Part shown: positions 21,367 to 25,455 of the stretch, one piece after another
Layout of the letters: every line of letters starts with the position of its first letter
How positions within the stretch are numbered: position 1 is the stretch's first letter
The notes under the pieces: model-generated
The model's input: only the letters and a program-made list of their open reading frames with translations
What the model was told of the DNA's origin: nothing
Database searches by the model: none
Translations under genes and position numbers: made by a program
DNA from: Planomonospora sp. ID67723
Lineage (GTDB): Bacteria; Actinomycetota; Actinomycetes; Streptosporangiales; Streptosporangiaceae
Reading direction: 5' to 3'
Length of the DNA stretch: 64,000 bases
Assembly: GCF_015711605.1 (NCBI RefSeq)
Contig: NZ_JABTEZ010000003.1
Span: 310,001 to 374,000 of the forward strand

Positions 21367-21780
21367 GGAGATCCTTTCATGGGGCGGTGGTGACTTTGAG
21401 TCATTGTGAGGGGCTCCGGCCCTCGCGCGGGCGGGGTTCGCCGGATTCACCGGTATGCCCGGCCTTGAGCACCGGCGGAACCACTGATCCGGATGGGGGG
21501 CGATGACCGCGCACGAGCGCAATGGCCCGGATGACACCCGCAGACGCGCGGGTTCGACCCCGGCGGCGCCTCCTGCACGCCCCTGCCCGATATCCTGGGA
21601 GGCGGCGCCGTCCCGCGCCGGACCTCCTGAGCCCGCGCCCACGCCGCGGGCCCCCGCGGAGGCAGAGGGGATCGTTGTCCTCGGGGCGTGAACGGTGTCA
21701 CCCGGTCTGACACGGCCTGCACGGCGGAACGAGCACCGAGCGTGGGAGACGTGCGCGCGCCGCCGCCCCAGGAGCAGATC
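21367..21780. other. Non-coding gap between divergent genes
   Basis: This 414-base stretch separates the small minus-strand gene from the BtrH-like gene. I see no convincing coding frame. A TATCCT hexamer at 21591-21596 could be a -10 element for the rightward gene, which would leave a leader of about 180 bases. A short GGGTTCGACCCC-like segment near 21550 resembles a tRNA T loop but has no partner arms. Confidence 0.4.
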
Positions 21781-22998
21781 ATGACCGACCACAAGCACCT
21801 CAAGCGCCGGGTCCGCGAGCGGATGGCCAGGACCGGCGAGTCCTACACCGGCGCGCTGCGCCACGTCCTCGCCGCCCGTGGGACCGCAGCGGGGGGACAC
21901 CCGCCGAGCGGGCACCATGACGCGGCGCTCCTGCACCACCTGCTGCCCGGCCACAGCGAGGCGATGCTCGCCGGACTCGGCGGCGGCATCGGGTTCATGT
22001 ACGCCGTCTTCGAGTACCGGGGCCACCACCCGACGGTGACGATCGTCGCCCAGGCCCATCCCGAACCGATGATCCCCACGGCGCTCGCCCGTGCCGGGAT
22101 CGCCCACGAGGTCCGGCAGACCGGCTCGCCCCGGGTCGCCGAGCGCGCCCTGCGCGAGACCCTGGAGGCGGGCCGGACGGCGATCTGCCGGGTCAGTCGT
22201 TTCGCGCTGCCCTGGCGGCCGGGGCTGCCGTTCCCCGACCCGCTGGAGGTCGCGGTCGTCGGCCTCGACGGCGGCGACGCGCTGGTGCGGGACGCGCGCG
22301 CCGAGCCGGAGCGGCTGCCCCTCTCGGAGTTCATGGCCGCGTGGTCGGCGCTGAGGAAGGCCCGCCACCATCTGGTCTCGGTCACCGGCCCGGCGGGCGC
22401 CGACCCGGCGGAGGCCGTGCGGAAGGCGATCGCCGCGACCGCGGCCGGGATGACCGGGCCGGTGCTGGGCAACGCCTTCGACGTCAACTTCGGTCTCTCG
22501 GGCATGAACCGGTTCGCCGGGCAGCTCGGGGACGCCGGGGGCAGGACCGGCTGGGCGCGGCGGTTCGCCCATCCGGAGGCGTTCTTCGGCGCGATGACGC
22601 GGCTGCACGAGTGCCTGGAGACCGAGTACACCGCGCCCGGCGCGACCCGCCCGCTGTACGCCGCCTTCCTGGACGAGGCCGGCGCCCTGCTCGGCGGTAC
22701 GGCCTGCGCCCGGGCGGCCGGGCTCTACCGTGAGGCGGGGGAGCTGTGGTCGCGGATCGCCGCCCGGGCGGCCGAGCCGTTCCCGCGCTACCGGGAGCTG
22801 GCCGAGGAGAGAGCCGAGCTGCTGCTCACCGAGGGGGCCGGAGCCGCCGCCCGGCTCCGGGAGATCGCCGCGACGGGCGCCTACGGGGGGCCGCTGGGTG
22901 AGGACGAGCGGAGGGACCTGCTGGCCGAGCTGGCCGGGCTGGCGGCGCGGGCCGTACGGGTCGAGGAGGAGGCGGTGGCGGCGCTGCGGGCCGTCTGA
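21781..22998 (+). CDS. BtrH N-terminal domain / DUF4872 protein
   Basis: The 405-residue protein has a short basic start (KHLKRRVRERMARTGESYTGALRHV, read here only as a recurring actinobacterial N-terminal segment), then a BtrH-type domain with GLGGGIGFMYAVFEYRG and a C-terminal DUF4872-like helical region. BtrH transfers an acyl chain from a carrier protein in butirosin synthesis, but stand-alone homologues are widespread and mostly uncharacterised. ATG 21781 follows CAGGAGCAG. There are no antibiotic-pathway genes beside it, so a function in secondary metabolism is not supported. A weak hairpin (GTCCGGGCC 23011-23019 with GGCCCGGAC 23071-23079) follows it. Confidence 0.75.
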   Translation: MTDHKHLKRRVRERMARTGESYTGALRHVLAARGTAAGGHPPSGHHDAALLHHLLPGHSEAMLAGLGGGIGFMYAVFEYRGHHPTVTIVAQAHPEPMIPTALARAGIAHEVRQTGSPRVAERALRETLEAGRTAICRVSRFALPWRPGLPFPDPLEVAVVGLDGGDALVRDARAEPERLPLSEFMAAWSALRKARHHLVSVTGPAGADPAEAVRKAIAATAAGMTGPVLGNAFDVNFGLSGMNRFAGQLGDAGGRTGWARRFAHPEAFFGAMTRLHECLETEYTAPGATRPLYAAFLDEAGALLGGTACARAAGLYREAGELWSRIAARAAEPFPRYRELAEERAELLLTEGAGAAARLREIAATGAYGGPLGEDERRDLLAELAGLAARAVRVEEEAVAALRAV

Positions 22999-23098
22999 AC
23001 CCGGGGCTCGGTCCGGGCCGGTGTCGGCCTCGGCGCCGGCGCCGGCGCCGGGCGCTGAGCGGCCGGCGGGGGCCCGGACTCCGGCGGAGGCGGAATTA

Positions 23099-23138
23099 AT
23101 CGGATGCGACGCATTCCGATCGCCGCTACCGTTGAAAA
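23099..23138 (+). promoter_or_regulatory. Probable promoter of the Y RNA array
   Basis: TACCGT at 23127-23132 matches the actinobacterial -10 pattern TANNNT and ends seven bases before the first paired base of Y RNA unit 1 at 23139, about where transcription would start. No good -35 hexamer was found. Immediately upstream is an imperfect inverted repeat, ATCGGATGCG (23099-23108) and CGCATTCCGAT (23110-23120), which could be a regulator site. All of this is read from the sequence; activity is inference. Confidence 0.4.
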
Positions 23139-23213
23139 CGCCTCAGGTGCGAGGGGACCGGATACTTCTTTTCCAGAGAAAACCAGCCGGGACCGATATC
23201 GAACTCTGCGGCG
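23139..23213 (+). ncRNA. Y-RNA-like RNA, unit 1 (compact, no tRNA-like domain)
   Basis: Closing stem 23139-23145 (CGCCTCA) pairs with 23207-23213 (TGCGGCG), one mismatch. The conserved 5' strand GGTGCGAGGGGACCGGATAC begins at 23146; its second helix GGGACCGG pairs with CCGGGACC, with tandem G-A/A-G mismatches in the middle. The 3' side of the internal loop reads ATCGAACTC. The apex is a simple hairpin, TTTTC-CAGA-GAAAA (23169-23182), where the other units carry a tRNA-like domain. It is the first and smallest member of the array (75 bases). Confidence 0.75.
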
Positions 23214-23231
23214 CAGACAAATGAATACGCG

Positions 23232-23369
23232 CTTCCCCGGTGCGAAGGCTGCGGATACTTCATCGCTCTCTCAAAGCGAAGGTCCGGGTTCGAGTCCCGG
23301 CGCCGGCTCCGGCCGGTGTGGTGTAACGGCAGCATATCTGTGCCGCCGCCGGCTTCGATCTCGGGGAGG
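23232..23369 (+). ncRNA. Y-RNA-like RNA, unit 2 (complete permuted tRNA-like domain)
   Basis: Closing stem 23232-23238 (CTTCCCC) pairs with 23363-23369 (GGGGAGG). Loop strands are GGTGCGAA (23239-23246) and TTCGATCTC (23354-23362); upper helix GGCTGCGG (23247-23254) pairs with CCGCCGCC (23343-23350), one mismatch. The apex is a whole permuted cloverleaf: anticodon-type arm TCGCT-CTCTCAA-AGCGA (23263-23279), T arm CCGGG-TTCGAGT-CCCGG (23284-23300), acceptor 3' strand CGCCGGC, tetraloop TCCG (23308-23311), acceptor 5' strand GCCGGTG, then TG and D arm GTGT-AACGGCA-GCAT (23321-23335). Loop position 33 is T and the anticodon reads CUC, as in tRNA-Glu. Confidence 0.85.
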
Positions 23370-23382
23370 ACGACGAATGCAC

Positions 23383-23531
23383 GGGCCCTCCCGGTGCGAA
23401 GGCAACGGTTACTTCGATTAGGGATCGGGAAGTCCGGGTTCGATTCCCGGCGCGCCGGCTGGAACCTGCGGCGCGTGGTGTAAGGCAGCACGCTTCGTAC
23501 CGTCGCCGGTCTTCCGAACTCGGGAGGGCCC
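23383..23531 (+). ncRNA. Y-RNA-like RNA, unit 3 (permuted tRNA-like domain)
   Basis: Closing stem GGGCCCTCCC (23383-23392) pairs perfectly with GGGAGGGCCC (23522-23531). GGTGCGAA follows, then helix GGCAACGGT (23401-23409) with ACCGTCGCC (23499-23507), A-C mismatch at the fourth position. The apex has a weak anticodon-type arm TTCGA-TTAGGGA-TCGGG (23413-23429), T arm CCGGG-TTCGATT-CCCGG (23434-23450), acceptor CGCGCCG (23451-23457) paired with CGGCGCG (23469-23475) around an 11-base loop, TG, then D arm GTGT-AAGGCA-GCAC (23478-23491). The 3' loop strand reads CCGAACTC. Confidence 0.85.
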
Positions 23532-23547
23532 CACAATTGCATACGCA

Positions 23548-23659
23548 CCCCCCGGTGCGACGACAGCGGATACTTCGAGGTTCGATTCCTGACAGCCCGA
23601 CCCCATCGGGCTGGTGCCCGATCGGCCGGGCGGTCCGTCGTCATCCCGATCTCGGGGGG
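23548..23659 (+). ncRNA. Y-RNA-like RNA, unit 4 (tRNA-like domain without anticodon arm)
   Basis: Closing stem CCCCCC (23548-23553) pairs with GGGGGG (23654-23659). GGTGCGAC follows, then helix GACAGCGG (23562-23569) with CCGTCGTC (23635-23642), again with an A-C mismatch at the fourth position. The apex has a short T arm around TTCGATT (23581-23587) whose stem carries one bulged G, an eight-base acceptor CAGCCCGA (23593-23600) with TCGGGCTG (23606-23613) closed by five bases, and a D-like arm GCCCG-ATCGGC-CGGGC (23616-23631). No anticodon arm precedes the T arm. The 3' loop strand reads CGATCTC. Confidence 0.78.
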
Positions 23660-23671
23660 ACCACCGTTCCA

Positions 23672-23812
23672 GAACGTGCCCGGTGCGCAGGCGAGGGATA
23701 CTTCCACTGTTGACGGGGTGGTTGCCGGTTCGAGTCCGGCCGGGGCAGAACAGCCCCGTAGCTCAAGTGGCAGAGCACCTTCGCCTTCGCCGCCTCGATC
23801 TCGGGCACGTTC
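23672..23812 (+). ncRNA. Y-RNA-like RNA, unit 5 (permuted tRNA-like domain)
   Basis: Closing stem GAACGTGCCC (23672-23681) pairs perfectly with GGGCACGTTC (23803-23812). GGTGCGCA follows, then helix GGCGAGGG (23690-23697) with CCTTCGCC (23784-23791). The apex has a hairpin CCACT-GTTGACGG-GGTGG (23704-23721), T arm GCCGG-TTCGAGT-CCGGC (23724-23740), acceptor CGGGGC (23741-23746) with GCCCCG (23753-23758) closed by AGAACA, then TA and D arm GCTC-AAGTGGCA-GAGC (23761-23776). De-permuted it would read as a near-normal tRNA with a six-pair acceptor. It ends 50 bases before the rsr start codon. Confidence 0.85.
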
Positions 23813-23862
23813 TGCGCGAACGCGGGTTCCCTCCTGCTCTCACCGCGAAAGGAGCCGCGTCC

Positions 23863-25455
23863 ATGTCCAAGTTCAACACGTTCGTCAACGCCGTGACCAG
23901 CCGCTCCGCCGTCTCCAGCCCGGTGACGACCGAGCGCGCGCCGTCCGGCCGCACCCACGAGGGCGCCCCCGGATACGTCCGCCAGGCCAAGGGGGAGCTG
24001 TTCCTGCTCGCGGTCTCGAACATGGTCGGTGAGGACGCCTTCTACGAGAAGGCGGGCGAGCGCGACGAGCGCTTCCGCGCCCTCGTCCACCGGGTCGCGG
24101 TCGAGGACGGCGCGTGGATGGCCCGCTTCCTGCCCTGGCTGCGCGGTACGGCGAACCTGCGCACCGCCCCGATCGTCGCCGCTCTGGAGTCGGTCAGGGC
24201 GCGCCTGGCCGCCGGGCAGCACGGCCTCAACCGGCAGTTGGTCAGCGGTGTCCTGCAGCGCGCCGACGAGCCCGGCGAGGCGCTCGCCTACTGGATGTCC
24301 CGGTACGGCCGCGCGGTGCCCAAGCCGGTCAAGCGCGGCATCGCCGACGCCGTCCAGCGGCTGTACGGCGAGCGCAGCCTGCTCAAGTACGACGGCGAGA
24401 CCCGGGGCTTCCGCTTCGGCGACGTGATCGACCTGGTGCACCCCGCCCCCGCGGCGGACCGGCCGTGGCAGGGCGAGCTGTTCGCGCACGCCCTGGACCG
24501 CAGGCACGGACGGGACAAGCCGATCCCCCGGACGCTGGCGACGTTGCGCGCCCGGGCCGAGCTGGCGGCCCTGCCGGTGGACGAGCGCCGCGCCGTACTG
24601 GCCGAGCCCGCCCGGCTGGCGGCCGCGGGCATGACCTGGGAGGCGCTCGCCGGATGGCTGCAGGGGCCGATGGACGCCCGGGCGTGGGAGGCCGTCGTGC
24701 CGTCGATGGGCTACATGGCCCTGCTGCGCAACCTCAGGAACCTCGACGAGGCCGGTGTCTCCGACGAGGTCGCGGAGCGGGTCATCGCCAAGCTCACCGA
24801 TCCGGACGAGGTCGCCCGCTCGCGGCAGCTGCCGTTCCGGTTCTACTCCGCGTACCGCACGGCGCCCTCGCTGCGCTGGGGGCACGCGCTGGAGCGGGCG
24901 CTGGGGCTGGCGACGCGCAACGTGCCGTCGTTCGGCGGCCGGACCCTCGTCCTGGTGGACACCTCGGCGTCCATGACGGGTGGCGCGGTCTCGGCGCGCT
25001 CCGTCGTCACACCGGCCCAGGCTGCCGCGCTGTTCGGCGTCGCGCTGGCCGCCCGCGGCGAGCGGGTGGACCTGTACGGCTTCGCCGACGGCGTGTTCCG
25101 GCACAAGGTCGGAAAGGGCGCGTCCGTGCTGAAGGAGATGGACCGCTTCTGCGCGCGGATCGGCGAGGTGGGCCACGGCACGCAGATCGCCGCCTCGGTC
25201 CGCAGGGCGTACTCCGGGCACGACCGGGTCGTCATCCTGTCCGACATGCAGACGATGAGCGGTCACTACGGCGGCGACGTCACCGGCGCGGCACCGCCGC
25301 ACGTCCCCATGTACGGCTTCAACCTGCAGGGATACCGGCACGCGGCGATGCCGACCGGCTCGGGCAACCGGCACGAGTTCGGCGGCTTCTCCGACGCGAC
25401 GTTCCGGCTGATCCCCCTGCTGGAGGCGGGGGAGGGGACGGGCTGGCCGTTCTGA
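23863..25455 (+). CDS. rsr: Ro60/Rsr orthologue: TROVE domain plus von Willebrand A domain
   Basis: The 530-residue protein begins with an N-terminal TROVE region (FLLAVSNMVGEDAFYEKAGERD, residues about 45-65; WMARFLPWLRGTANLRTAPIVAAL) made of HEAT-like repeats that form the RNA-binding ring of Ro60. The C-terminal third is a vWA fold with the metal-ion motif VDTSASM near residue 365 and a late VVILSDMQT. Ro proteins bind Y RNAs on the outside of the ring and misfolded RNA ends in the cavity, and help RNA quality control with exonucleases such as PNPase. ATG 23863 follows AAAGGAG. It lies directly after five Y-RNA-like units on the same strand and is followed by a strong terminator. Confidence 0.93.
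   Translation: MSKFNTFVNAVTSRSAVSSPVTTERAPSGRTHEGAPGYVRQAKGELFLLAVSNMVGEDAFYEKAGERDERFRALVHRVAVEDGAWMARFLPWLRGTANLRTAPIVAALESVRARLAAGQHGLNRQLVSGVLQRADEPGEALAYWMSRYGRAVPKPVKRGIADAVQRLYGERSLLKYDGETRGFRFGDVIDLVHPAPAADRPWQGELFAHALDRRHGRDKPIPRTLATLRARAELAALPVDERRAVLAEPARLAAAGMTWEALAGWLQGPMDARAWEAVVPSMGYMALLRNLRNLDEAGVSDEVAERVIAKLTDPDEVARSRQLPFRFYSAYRTAPSLRWGHALERALGLATRNVPSFGGRTLVLVDTSASMTGGAVSARSVVTPAQAAALFGVALAARGERVDLYGFADGVFRHKVGKGASVLKEMDRFCARIGEVGHGTQIAASVRRAYSGHDRVVILSDMQTMSGHYGGDVTGAAPPHVPMYGFNLQGYRHAAMPTGSGNRHEFGGFSDATFRLIPLLEAGEGTGWPF

Follow-up and report, generated by a model that had tools for sequence, protein, structure and literature searches.

The window analysed here, a stretch of 64,000 nucleotides from Planomonospora sp. 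ID67723 (contig NZ_JABTEZ010000003.1, positions 310,001 to 374,000), carries rsr, which encodes a Ro60/TROVE protein and has one match only in the genome, and directly upstream of it a row of five units, U1 to U5, that are very probably Y RNAs acting as partners of Rsr (Table 1). An earlier note on this DNA had placed five + strand units upstream of the Ro gene, ending 50 bases before its start, and motif positions, stems and shuffles confirm this. The motif GGTGCG is found once per unit, at 23146, 23239, 23393, 23554 and 23682, and so is CGAWCTC, at 23200, 23356, 23515, 23647 and 23796; a closing stem is possible between the 5' and 3' ends of every unit, and the last of these stems ends at 23812, 50 bases before the rsr ATG at 23863. 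The closing stem of U3 formed in an unconstrained fold with the ends set at 23386/23528 and was missed with the other ends tried. The pattern GGTGCGN{6,12}GGNTACTTC is matched by every unit; the 8.3-Mb genome contains it five times, never on the other strand, and lacks the reversed control, and 300 dinucleotide shuffles of 23001-23862 gave a mean of 0.01 units and a maximum of 1. A looser detector flagged four further spots in the window outside the array, two on each strand.

All units share a Ro stem composed of closing pairs, a G-C pair, an internal loop resembling UG/AU, an inner helix and the segment GGN-TAC-TTC. Full units continue 3' of TACTTC with a hairpin and a variable loop; next come the T arm, an acceptor stem with its own closing loop, U8 (a T after the acceptor is present in 121 of the 131 full units collected below) and a D arm. 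Judged from sequence, a full unit is a complete circularly permuted tRNA, opened between the D arm and the anticodon arm, and it is likely that the units combine both traits, being Rsr-partner Y RNAs and having this architecture. The anticodon-like arm of U2 (23263-23279) has the loop CTCTCAA, identical to that of the host tRNA-Glu with anticodon CTC, followed by a T arm (23284-23300), a closed acceptor (23301-23318) and, from 23319, a Gln-like D arm (TGGTGTAA). U3 likewise has an arm (23413-23429, loop TTAGGGA, triplet AGG), a T arm (23434-23450) and a Gln-like D arm (TGGTGTAA). U5 has a T arm (23724-23740), a closed acceptor and the D arm TAGCTCAAGTGGCAGAGC; its arm-like sequence at 23702-23718 (TTCCA CTGTTGA CGGGG, triplet GTT) contains an A-C mismatch, and its orthologues in loci L025 and L026 have an intact arm stem with the loop CTGTTAA. 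The hairpin of U1 (23166-23180) has a 4-bp stem, the loop TTTCCAG and the triplet TCC. The T-loop GGTTCGA is found in U2 to U5 only, not in U1, and in U4 it lies at 23579, immediately 3' of TACTTCGA. The tRNA-like domain of T arm, closed acceptor and D arm is thus present in U2, U3 and U5, partly in U4 and not in U1. Measured against a tRNA anticodon arm (5-bp stem, 7-base loop, U33), U2 fits, U3 fits by its sequence, U1 has one pair too few and U5 does not fit. The single repeated plan described earlier therefore holds for the terminal Ro stem and fails for the interiors, which differ among U1, U4 and U2/U3/U5. The TACTTC block itself, which lies at 23163-23168 in the window and at the corresponding position of the other units, is shared by units of all size classes and also by phage rows, and its TAC is unpaired.

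Table 1. Features of the rsr locus in the window, and tRNA gene arrays found upstream of units and rsr at three other loci
Feature	Position	Strand	Description
Upstream open reading frame (ORF)	21688-22998		BtrH_N and DUF4872 domains; as far as seen unrelated to Ro
Promoter-like block	23092..23132	+	GGAATTAATCGG...GCTACCGT; conserved in sister species
U1, short Y RNA	23139..23213	+	Ro stem and one anticodon-arm-like hairpin; no T, acceptor or D arm
U2, full permuted-tRNA Y RNA	23233..23369	+	anticodon-like arm, T arm, closed acceptor, D arm
U3, full permuted-tRNA Y RNA	23386..23528	+	anticodon-like arm, T arm, closed acceptor, D arm
U4, mid-size Y RNA	23548..23659	+	T arm, acceptor-like hairpin, degenerate (weak) D arm; no anticodon-like arm
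U5, full permuted-tRNA Y RNA	23672..23812	+	T arm, closed acceptor, D arm; arm-like sequence with mismatch
rsr, Ro60/TROVE protein, 530 aa	23863..25455	+	PF05731, E 5.5e-16
Array, Micromonosporaceae metagenome-assembled genome	L043:1734-4509		30 tRNA genes (ARAGORN)
Array, Catelliglobosispora	L055:1949-4530		23 tRNA genes (ARAGORN)
Array, Rhizocola	L054:1729-2758		5 tRNA genes (ARAGORN)

It is hardly tenable that the row consists of tRNA genes, whether ordinary or decayed. ARAGORN does report a tRNA-Glu(ctc) at 23237-23307, as well as tRNAs in other arrays, yet the region is really the 5' part of U2, which scores 27.4 bits against the Rfam tRNA model, below the cut-off of 29. Ordinary tRNA genes were rejected on covariation as well, as a would-be 5' acceptor strand, placed as in an ordinary tRNA, showed none with the 3' acceptor strand at any of 16 offsets, and the closed acceptor hairpin was paired at 0.984 in the same 80 units.

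Units elsewhere were sought with a custom detector that combines the 5' motif, the TACTTC block with up to 2 mismatches, the 3' motif and a closing stem, and that was applied to a named-locus set, the best 80 actinobacterial rsr loci among the matches listed. In the 80 kb immediately upstream of these rsr genes it reported 202 units, compared with 23 in 1.52 Mb of the same loci at other positions or on the opposite strand. Within 1 kb upstream, 2 loci had no unit, 10 had one, 30 had two, 22 three, 14 four and 2 five, so that at least two were present at 68/80 loci and at least three at 38/80. When the search was extended to 2 kb at 127 of 129 loci (two were dropped with the rsr N-terminus unmatched, and some species are in twice), the number of loci with zero to six units was 7, 12, 42, 32, 30, 3 and 1, respectively. 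Loci with at least two units belong to Planobispora, Microbispora, Nonomuraea, Actinomadura and Lentzea, and also to Rhodococcus, Nocardia, Streptomyces, Glycomyces and Nocardiopsis. Across the family, 142 of 341 genomes have an Rsr match, with an E limit of 0.001 and weak matches counted, and the nearest named relatives of the window protein among the matches listed are Planomonospora venezuelensis (89% identity) and, at 86%, Planobispora species and P. parontospora. Arrays beside rsr in other actinobacterial genomes, which the earlier note had named as support, were thus found, and its view that five in a row were not known gives way: rows as such are ordinary, and five is rare. We considered the row itself as the main novelty and rejected it, since rows are common beside actinobacterial rsr and five marks their long end. 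Provisionally, the unusual part is the imitation of an anticodon arm. We found no statement on an anticodon arm or on such rows in Y RNAs in the literature searched, which did not cover the primary Y RNA papers, and the novelty of the arm in Y RNAs is likewise provisional.

Compensating changes at the proposed stems, which had also been anticipated, were detected with custom scripts and RNAalifold, counting identical unit sequences once and taking as control the same stems with partners swapped between units. The closing stem was paired at 0.975 versus 0.710 swapped (274 units, all 6 positions with double changes), the acceptor at 0.986 versus 0.586 (102 units) and the D stem at 0.980 versus 0.805 (128 units), these three stems having been selected on pairing before covariation was measured. 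For the anticodon arm the geometry was fixed without any selection; over 225 units, short and full, it was paired at 0.682 versus 0.557 swapped (maximum 0.578), and sliding the arm by 1-3 bases left no pairing excess. For RNAalifold, 28 full units were picked, mostly arm-bearing, of which 26 were used (L079 and L101 were left out) together with U5 of the window. These 27 yielded 36 pairs, 20 of them with double changes, in helices that correspond to the Ro stem and the anticodon, T, acceptor and D arms; the anticodon arm comprised four pairs, one column of which was C-G in 15 units and G-C in 12.

The arm carries the tRNA geometry. We defined as full those units with a core of at least 112 bases and a T arm, 131 of the 274 distinct units, and scanned them over variable-loop and loop lengths: the best combination was 5 and 7, with 37% perfect 5-bp stems, followed by the neighbouring 4 and 7 with 21%, and the optimum of 5-bp stem, 7-base loop and 5-base variable loop is that of tRNA. 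An arm, scored as at least 4 of 5 pairs, is possible in 97/131 full units, and among these a pyrimidine is present at position 32 in 91, U33 in 87, a purine at 37 in 89 and A38 in 87. For comparison with the host we used 54 anticodon loops from 59 ARAGORN calls on fetched stretches of the window genome, 41 places that cover part of 68 Rfam matches, with near-duplicates by score skipped. The arm loop is identical to a host anticodon loop in 52/97 units, against a mean of 17.6 and a maximum of 30 when loop columns were shuffled (2000 shuffles), and loops read 1-3 bases off gave only 0-3 host matches. Where ARAGORN calls overlap arms in the 80 named loci, its triplet equals the arm triplet in 23 of the 24 overlaps compared by eye, L091 giving two letters only.

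Of 74 short units, anchored at TTC, 28 form a 7-base loop closed by 4 or more perfect pairs (9-base loops in 11, 5-base in 9), compared with a mean of 1.9 and a maximum of 6 for such 7-base loops in 200 shuffles. At 3 or more pairs 7-base loops appear in 46/74 and 9-base loops in 29; U33 is found in 43 of those 46, and 16 of them have host-identical loops versus 4.5 expected from shuffling (maximum 12). With the same anchor, 151 full-size units show as many 7-base as 9-base loops at 4 pairs, 69 each, since a 5-bp arm whose top pair opens has a 9-base loop; at 5 pairs the counts are 65 and 5. In the 32 of 34 full units with no local arm that could be tested, the canonical 27-31/39-43 pairing is perfect in 14 and averages 3.75 of 5 pairs versus 2.6 swapped (maximum 3.22); arm-bearing full units have a small excess too (2.87 versus 2.55, maximum 2.78). 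In the units with no local arm it is the anticodon loop from which the Ro stem leaves, the arrangement of classical YrlA, and there are thus two architectures, at times within one array.

A number of observations weigh against an anticodon arm as a general feature of these RNAs. Related genomes share loops by descent, and with each distinct loop counted once, 18/50 are host-identical versus 6.7 shuffled (maximum 13) in full units and 9/34 versus 2.9 (maximum 9) in short ones. The arm is missing by our measure in 34/131 full units, U5 of the window included, and mid-size units show a 7-base loop in only 4/79 cases. In held-out new full units an arm was found in 9/15, with U33 in 8, a purine at 37 in 8 and A38 in 7; in the short units A38 is weaker (24/46). 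RNAalifold on 24 short units recovered the Ro stem and no arm hairpin, the alignment being poor there. In the window, U2 places a Glu triplet beside a Gln-like D arm. Energy folding of single sequences gave arm pair probabilities of 0.72-0.86 for U1 and 0.92-1.0 for U2; those of U3 were only 0.27-0.55, another fold being the minimum, and those of U5 were 0, a shifted hairpin being preferred. The median arm pair reached at least 0.5 in 37 of the 97 arm-bearing full units and stayed below 0.1 in 36. The same test on host tRNAs placed the real anticodon stem at 0.5 or more in 38/58 and below 0.1 in 9, and on 28 arm-bearing short units it gave 18 and 1, respectively, so short units match real tRNAs and full units fall short. 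The comparative signal of the loops and the covariation stand despite energy folding, and the arm is probably a real structure in most units able to form it, an estimate that we lowered from highly probable because the energy folding was less clear.

The triplet is where these arms change. In the last unit of eight Lentzea species the Ro stem, TACTTC and the arm are near-frozen, with changes confined to two single columns and the three positions of the anticodon, the triplets being GTA, GTT, TTT and CCT; in sister species of the window, U1 has the triplets TCC, CCC, TGG and CGG and loops such as CTCCCAA, TTTGGGA and TTCGGCA. We compared 189 ortholog-like pairs, drawn from 74 units and having identical arm stems. 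Their differences at positions 32 to 38 were 0.43, 0.19, 0.62, 0.56, 0.46, 0.47 and 0.22, and the triplet differs in 155/189. A reading that we hold to be a serious possibility, though short of even, is that all this is structural only: the units would provide a compact fold on which tRNA-modifying enzymes and PNPase dock, and the hairpin would be left over from tRNA capture, its triplet drifting freely. It has a basis in what passages of PMC8394870 report for YrlA, which DusA and TruB modify and which acts as a PNPase tether, Rsr being tethered by the basal stem, and it gains from the 41 closest pairs, whose differences of 0.24, 0.12, 0.46, 0.22, 0.22, 0.27 and 0.20 single out position 34 alone, at 0.46, the other loop positions ranging over 0.12-0.27. 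Other pairings, moreover, are often favoured by energy folding in full units, and the type of the D arm agrees with the triplet only sometimes. A Glu-type D arm carries a Glu triplet in 5/14 units versus 4/86 of the others, an association (Fisher p 0.0024) that is weak and uncorrected for descent. Under free drift, however, neither the retention of U33, purine-37 and A38 nor exact host loops in 52/97 units would be expected, and short units retain the hairpin without any tRNA body. Over the 189 pairs the triplet is the most variable part (0.62, 0.56, 0.46), 33 and 38 are the least variable (0.19, 0.22), and 32 and 37 lie between (0.43, 0.47).

Several known systems resemble the units in part. 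With vertebrate Y RNAs they share a short-motif likeness, GGUCCGAAGG / GGUGCGAAGG, the vertebrate motif being that named in the earlier note and homology not being implied; vertebrate Y RNAs are not known to have a tRNA-like part. Circularly permuted tRNA genes of algae and archaea mature into tRNAs, and they share the permuted order with the window units, which instead end in a Ro-type stem. The closest likeness is to YrlA (RF02553; Salmonella YrlA, PDB 6CU1), which is encoded beside rsr and has a terminal Ro stem, a permuted set of T arm, closed acceptor and D arm, and a conserved junction, gaAUGCuu in Rfam, that aligns with GGAUACUU-like letters. U5 matches the family over its tRNA-like part with 44.4 bits (E 2.3e-8). 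There are differences: the Rfam consensus contains a long-range stem and lacks an anticodon arm, whereas actinobacterial units can form a local arm between Ro stem and T arm, and actinobacterial loci hold several units each, with and without a tRNA body. The units are very probably bacterial Y RNAs of the YrlA kind, which mimics tRNA, though the gathering score of 69 was reached by no window unit, and with the E limit set at 1 the Rfam search gave no YrlA match for U1 to U4. In the portions of the literature used here, YrlA is described as circularly permuted relative to tRNA (PMC11472068) and as resembling the D, T and acceptor arms of tRNA (PMC8394870), and Salmonella is described as having rsr-yrlBA, with the Y RNAs beside rsr in one operon, together with rtcBA (PMC7790460). 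Salmonella rsr-yrlBA thus has two RNAs and rtcBA, and the window has five RNAs; Pfam named no rtcB or rtcA product on the five ORFs around rsr that were scanned, other ORFs lying outside the scan. The earlier description of Y-RNA-like RNAs beside Ro survives in view of the similarity of U5 to YrlA, the recurrence by rsr and the covarying stems; it had overlooked the permuted-tRNA modules and the anticodon-like hairpins.

We propose that the locus would be an operon-like row of five Y RNAs serving the Rsr (Ro60) encoded just downstream, made as one transcript that would start at U1 and be cut at the linkers. The terminal stem GGTGCG...CGAWCTC would be the Ro-binding tether, and the inner part would imitate tRNA to different extents, by an arm alone (U1), by a body without an arm (U4, and U5 here) or by a whole permuted tRNA (U2, U3). 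With a loop closing its acceptor end, such an RNA is not expected to be aminoacylated or to take part in translation. Because the arms of different units are often unlike and vary at the triplet, several tRNA identities are probably represented in the set. Held by Rsr, it may show tRNA surfaces to tRNA-binding factors, as bait, sensor or guide, and, of these, would most likely occupy or recruit readers of the anticodon loop; that the units act through such factors is put forward tentatively.

A related idea, which we regard as unlikely, is that the units are decoys or sensors for anticodon nucleases, offering differing loops whose cutting or binding is registered by Rsr. Variable triplets within a conserved frame are what such a role would use, and Wolin and co-workers, in a portion of PMC7790460, proposed the tRNA-like domain of YrlA as a competitive inhibitor of an anticodon nuclease. 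The same source, as far as its relevant passage goes, reports that Salmonella YrlA is not a substrate of the RecA-dependent nuclease, and the arrays show no excess of distinct triplets: repeats within one array are not significantly avoided (1/57 the same versus 2.2 expected), a result that also counts against the main reading proposed here. Phages bear on the question. Among 69 matching phage records, nine Ro loci were examined; each has TACTTC at least twice within 1 kb upstream, and in at least three phages (pSt2308, Atuin, Alone3) the Ro gene lies within a tRNA gene cluster. Arm loops are seen in Streptomyces phage Quantum (CTCTGGA, with a Gln-like D arm), Xanthomonas phage Olaya (CTGTTAA) and Gordonia phage VanLee (CTTCTAA), and several other units in the nine rows have no visible arm. 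tRNA gene arrays upstream of rsr, at 3/80 named loci, would also suit a nuclease conflict, but the other 77 have none in the stretch examined. Broadened to Ro loci of bacteria and phages alike, the idea becomes that of a fast-evolving panel of anticodon-arm mimics on Ro-held Y RNAs, a bait or sensor in conflicts over tRNA cleavage with the triplet as its variable 'aim'; we consider this rather unlikely.

Plasmids add to the range of these arms. Of five plasmid loci, out of 40 plasmid records with a match, inspected by eye and without statistics, that of Deinococcus taeanensis shows an arm with the loop TTGTTAA and that of Rhodococcus rhodochrous arm-like loops on short stems, and no clear arm was seen by eye in the Bifidobacterium and Pseudomonas loci. 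A Rhizobium plasmid YrlA (59.8 bits), adjoining rtcR and rtcB, has relative to the Rfam model an arm-like insert with CTGTTAC, and the arm may therefore be older than the Actinobacteria.

Being on the same strand as rsr and ending 50 bases from its ATG, the array could instead be a 5' leader that regulates the gene in cis. This is very unlikely, as every unit is closed on itself by a covarying stem, unit number and order vary among species, and RNAs of the YrlA type are known as separate RNAs, according to the portion of PMC8394870 consulted. Expression together with rsr, as part of the Rsr-serving row that we propose, is plausible in view of the common strand, the short linkers and the conserved promoter-like block. 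TACCGT at 23127-23132, about 7 bases before U1, is a possible -10 element, and the block is conserved with Planomonospora venezuelensis, GCTACCGT and its spacing to U1 also with Planobispora; we infer from this conservation that it may function as a promoter. A hexamer of the TACCGT kind was found at only 23/120 loci and any TANNNT at 55/120. Linkers between units have a median length of 27 bases (165 linkers), and ACAACT occurs in 44/134 linkers of up to 45 bases, e.g. in L003, L028 and L030, and in none of the window's own four. A separate promoter for each unit was considered and set aside, as the linkers are short and ACAACT is better read as a putative processing site than as a per-unit promoter.

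If the reading proposed here is true, the shifting, real-looking anticodons make the role of bacterial Ro and its Y RNAs testable and would tie Ro to tRNA damage, where work on Salmonella RtcR already points. It would also mean that tRNA finders and some phage records mistake Y RNAs for tRNAs. Four annotated phage tRNAs (Arg-tct, Ser-gct, Pro-tgg and Gln) overlap TACTTC units before Ro, at L202:2704-2775, L204:1274-1347, L206:1233-1323 and L208:667-734, and look like Y RNAs, not tRNAs.

In another genome of the family (G005), the region C15:15000-18500 (L198) has Rfam YrlA matches of 46.9 and 37.6 bits, with no detector unit in that region and no Rsr match in the genome. The three tRNA gene arrays at named loci, called by ARAGORN, lie upstream of both the units and rsr (L043, L055 and L054; Table 1). 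The window genome itself has, outside the window at C1:932403-933188 (L164), seven packed and mostly low-scoring tRNA genes in less than 800 bases.

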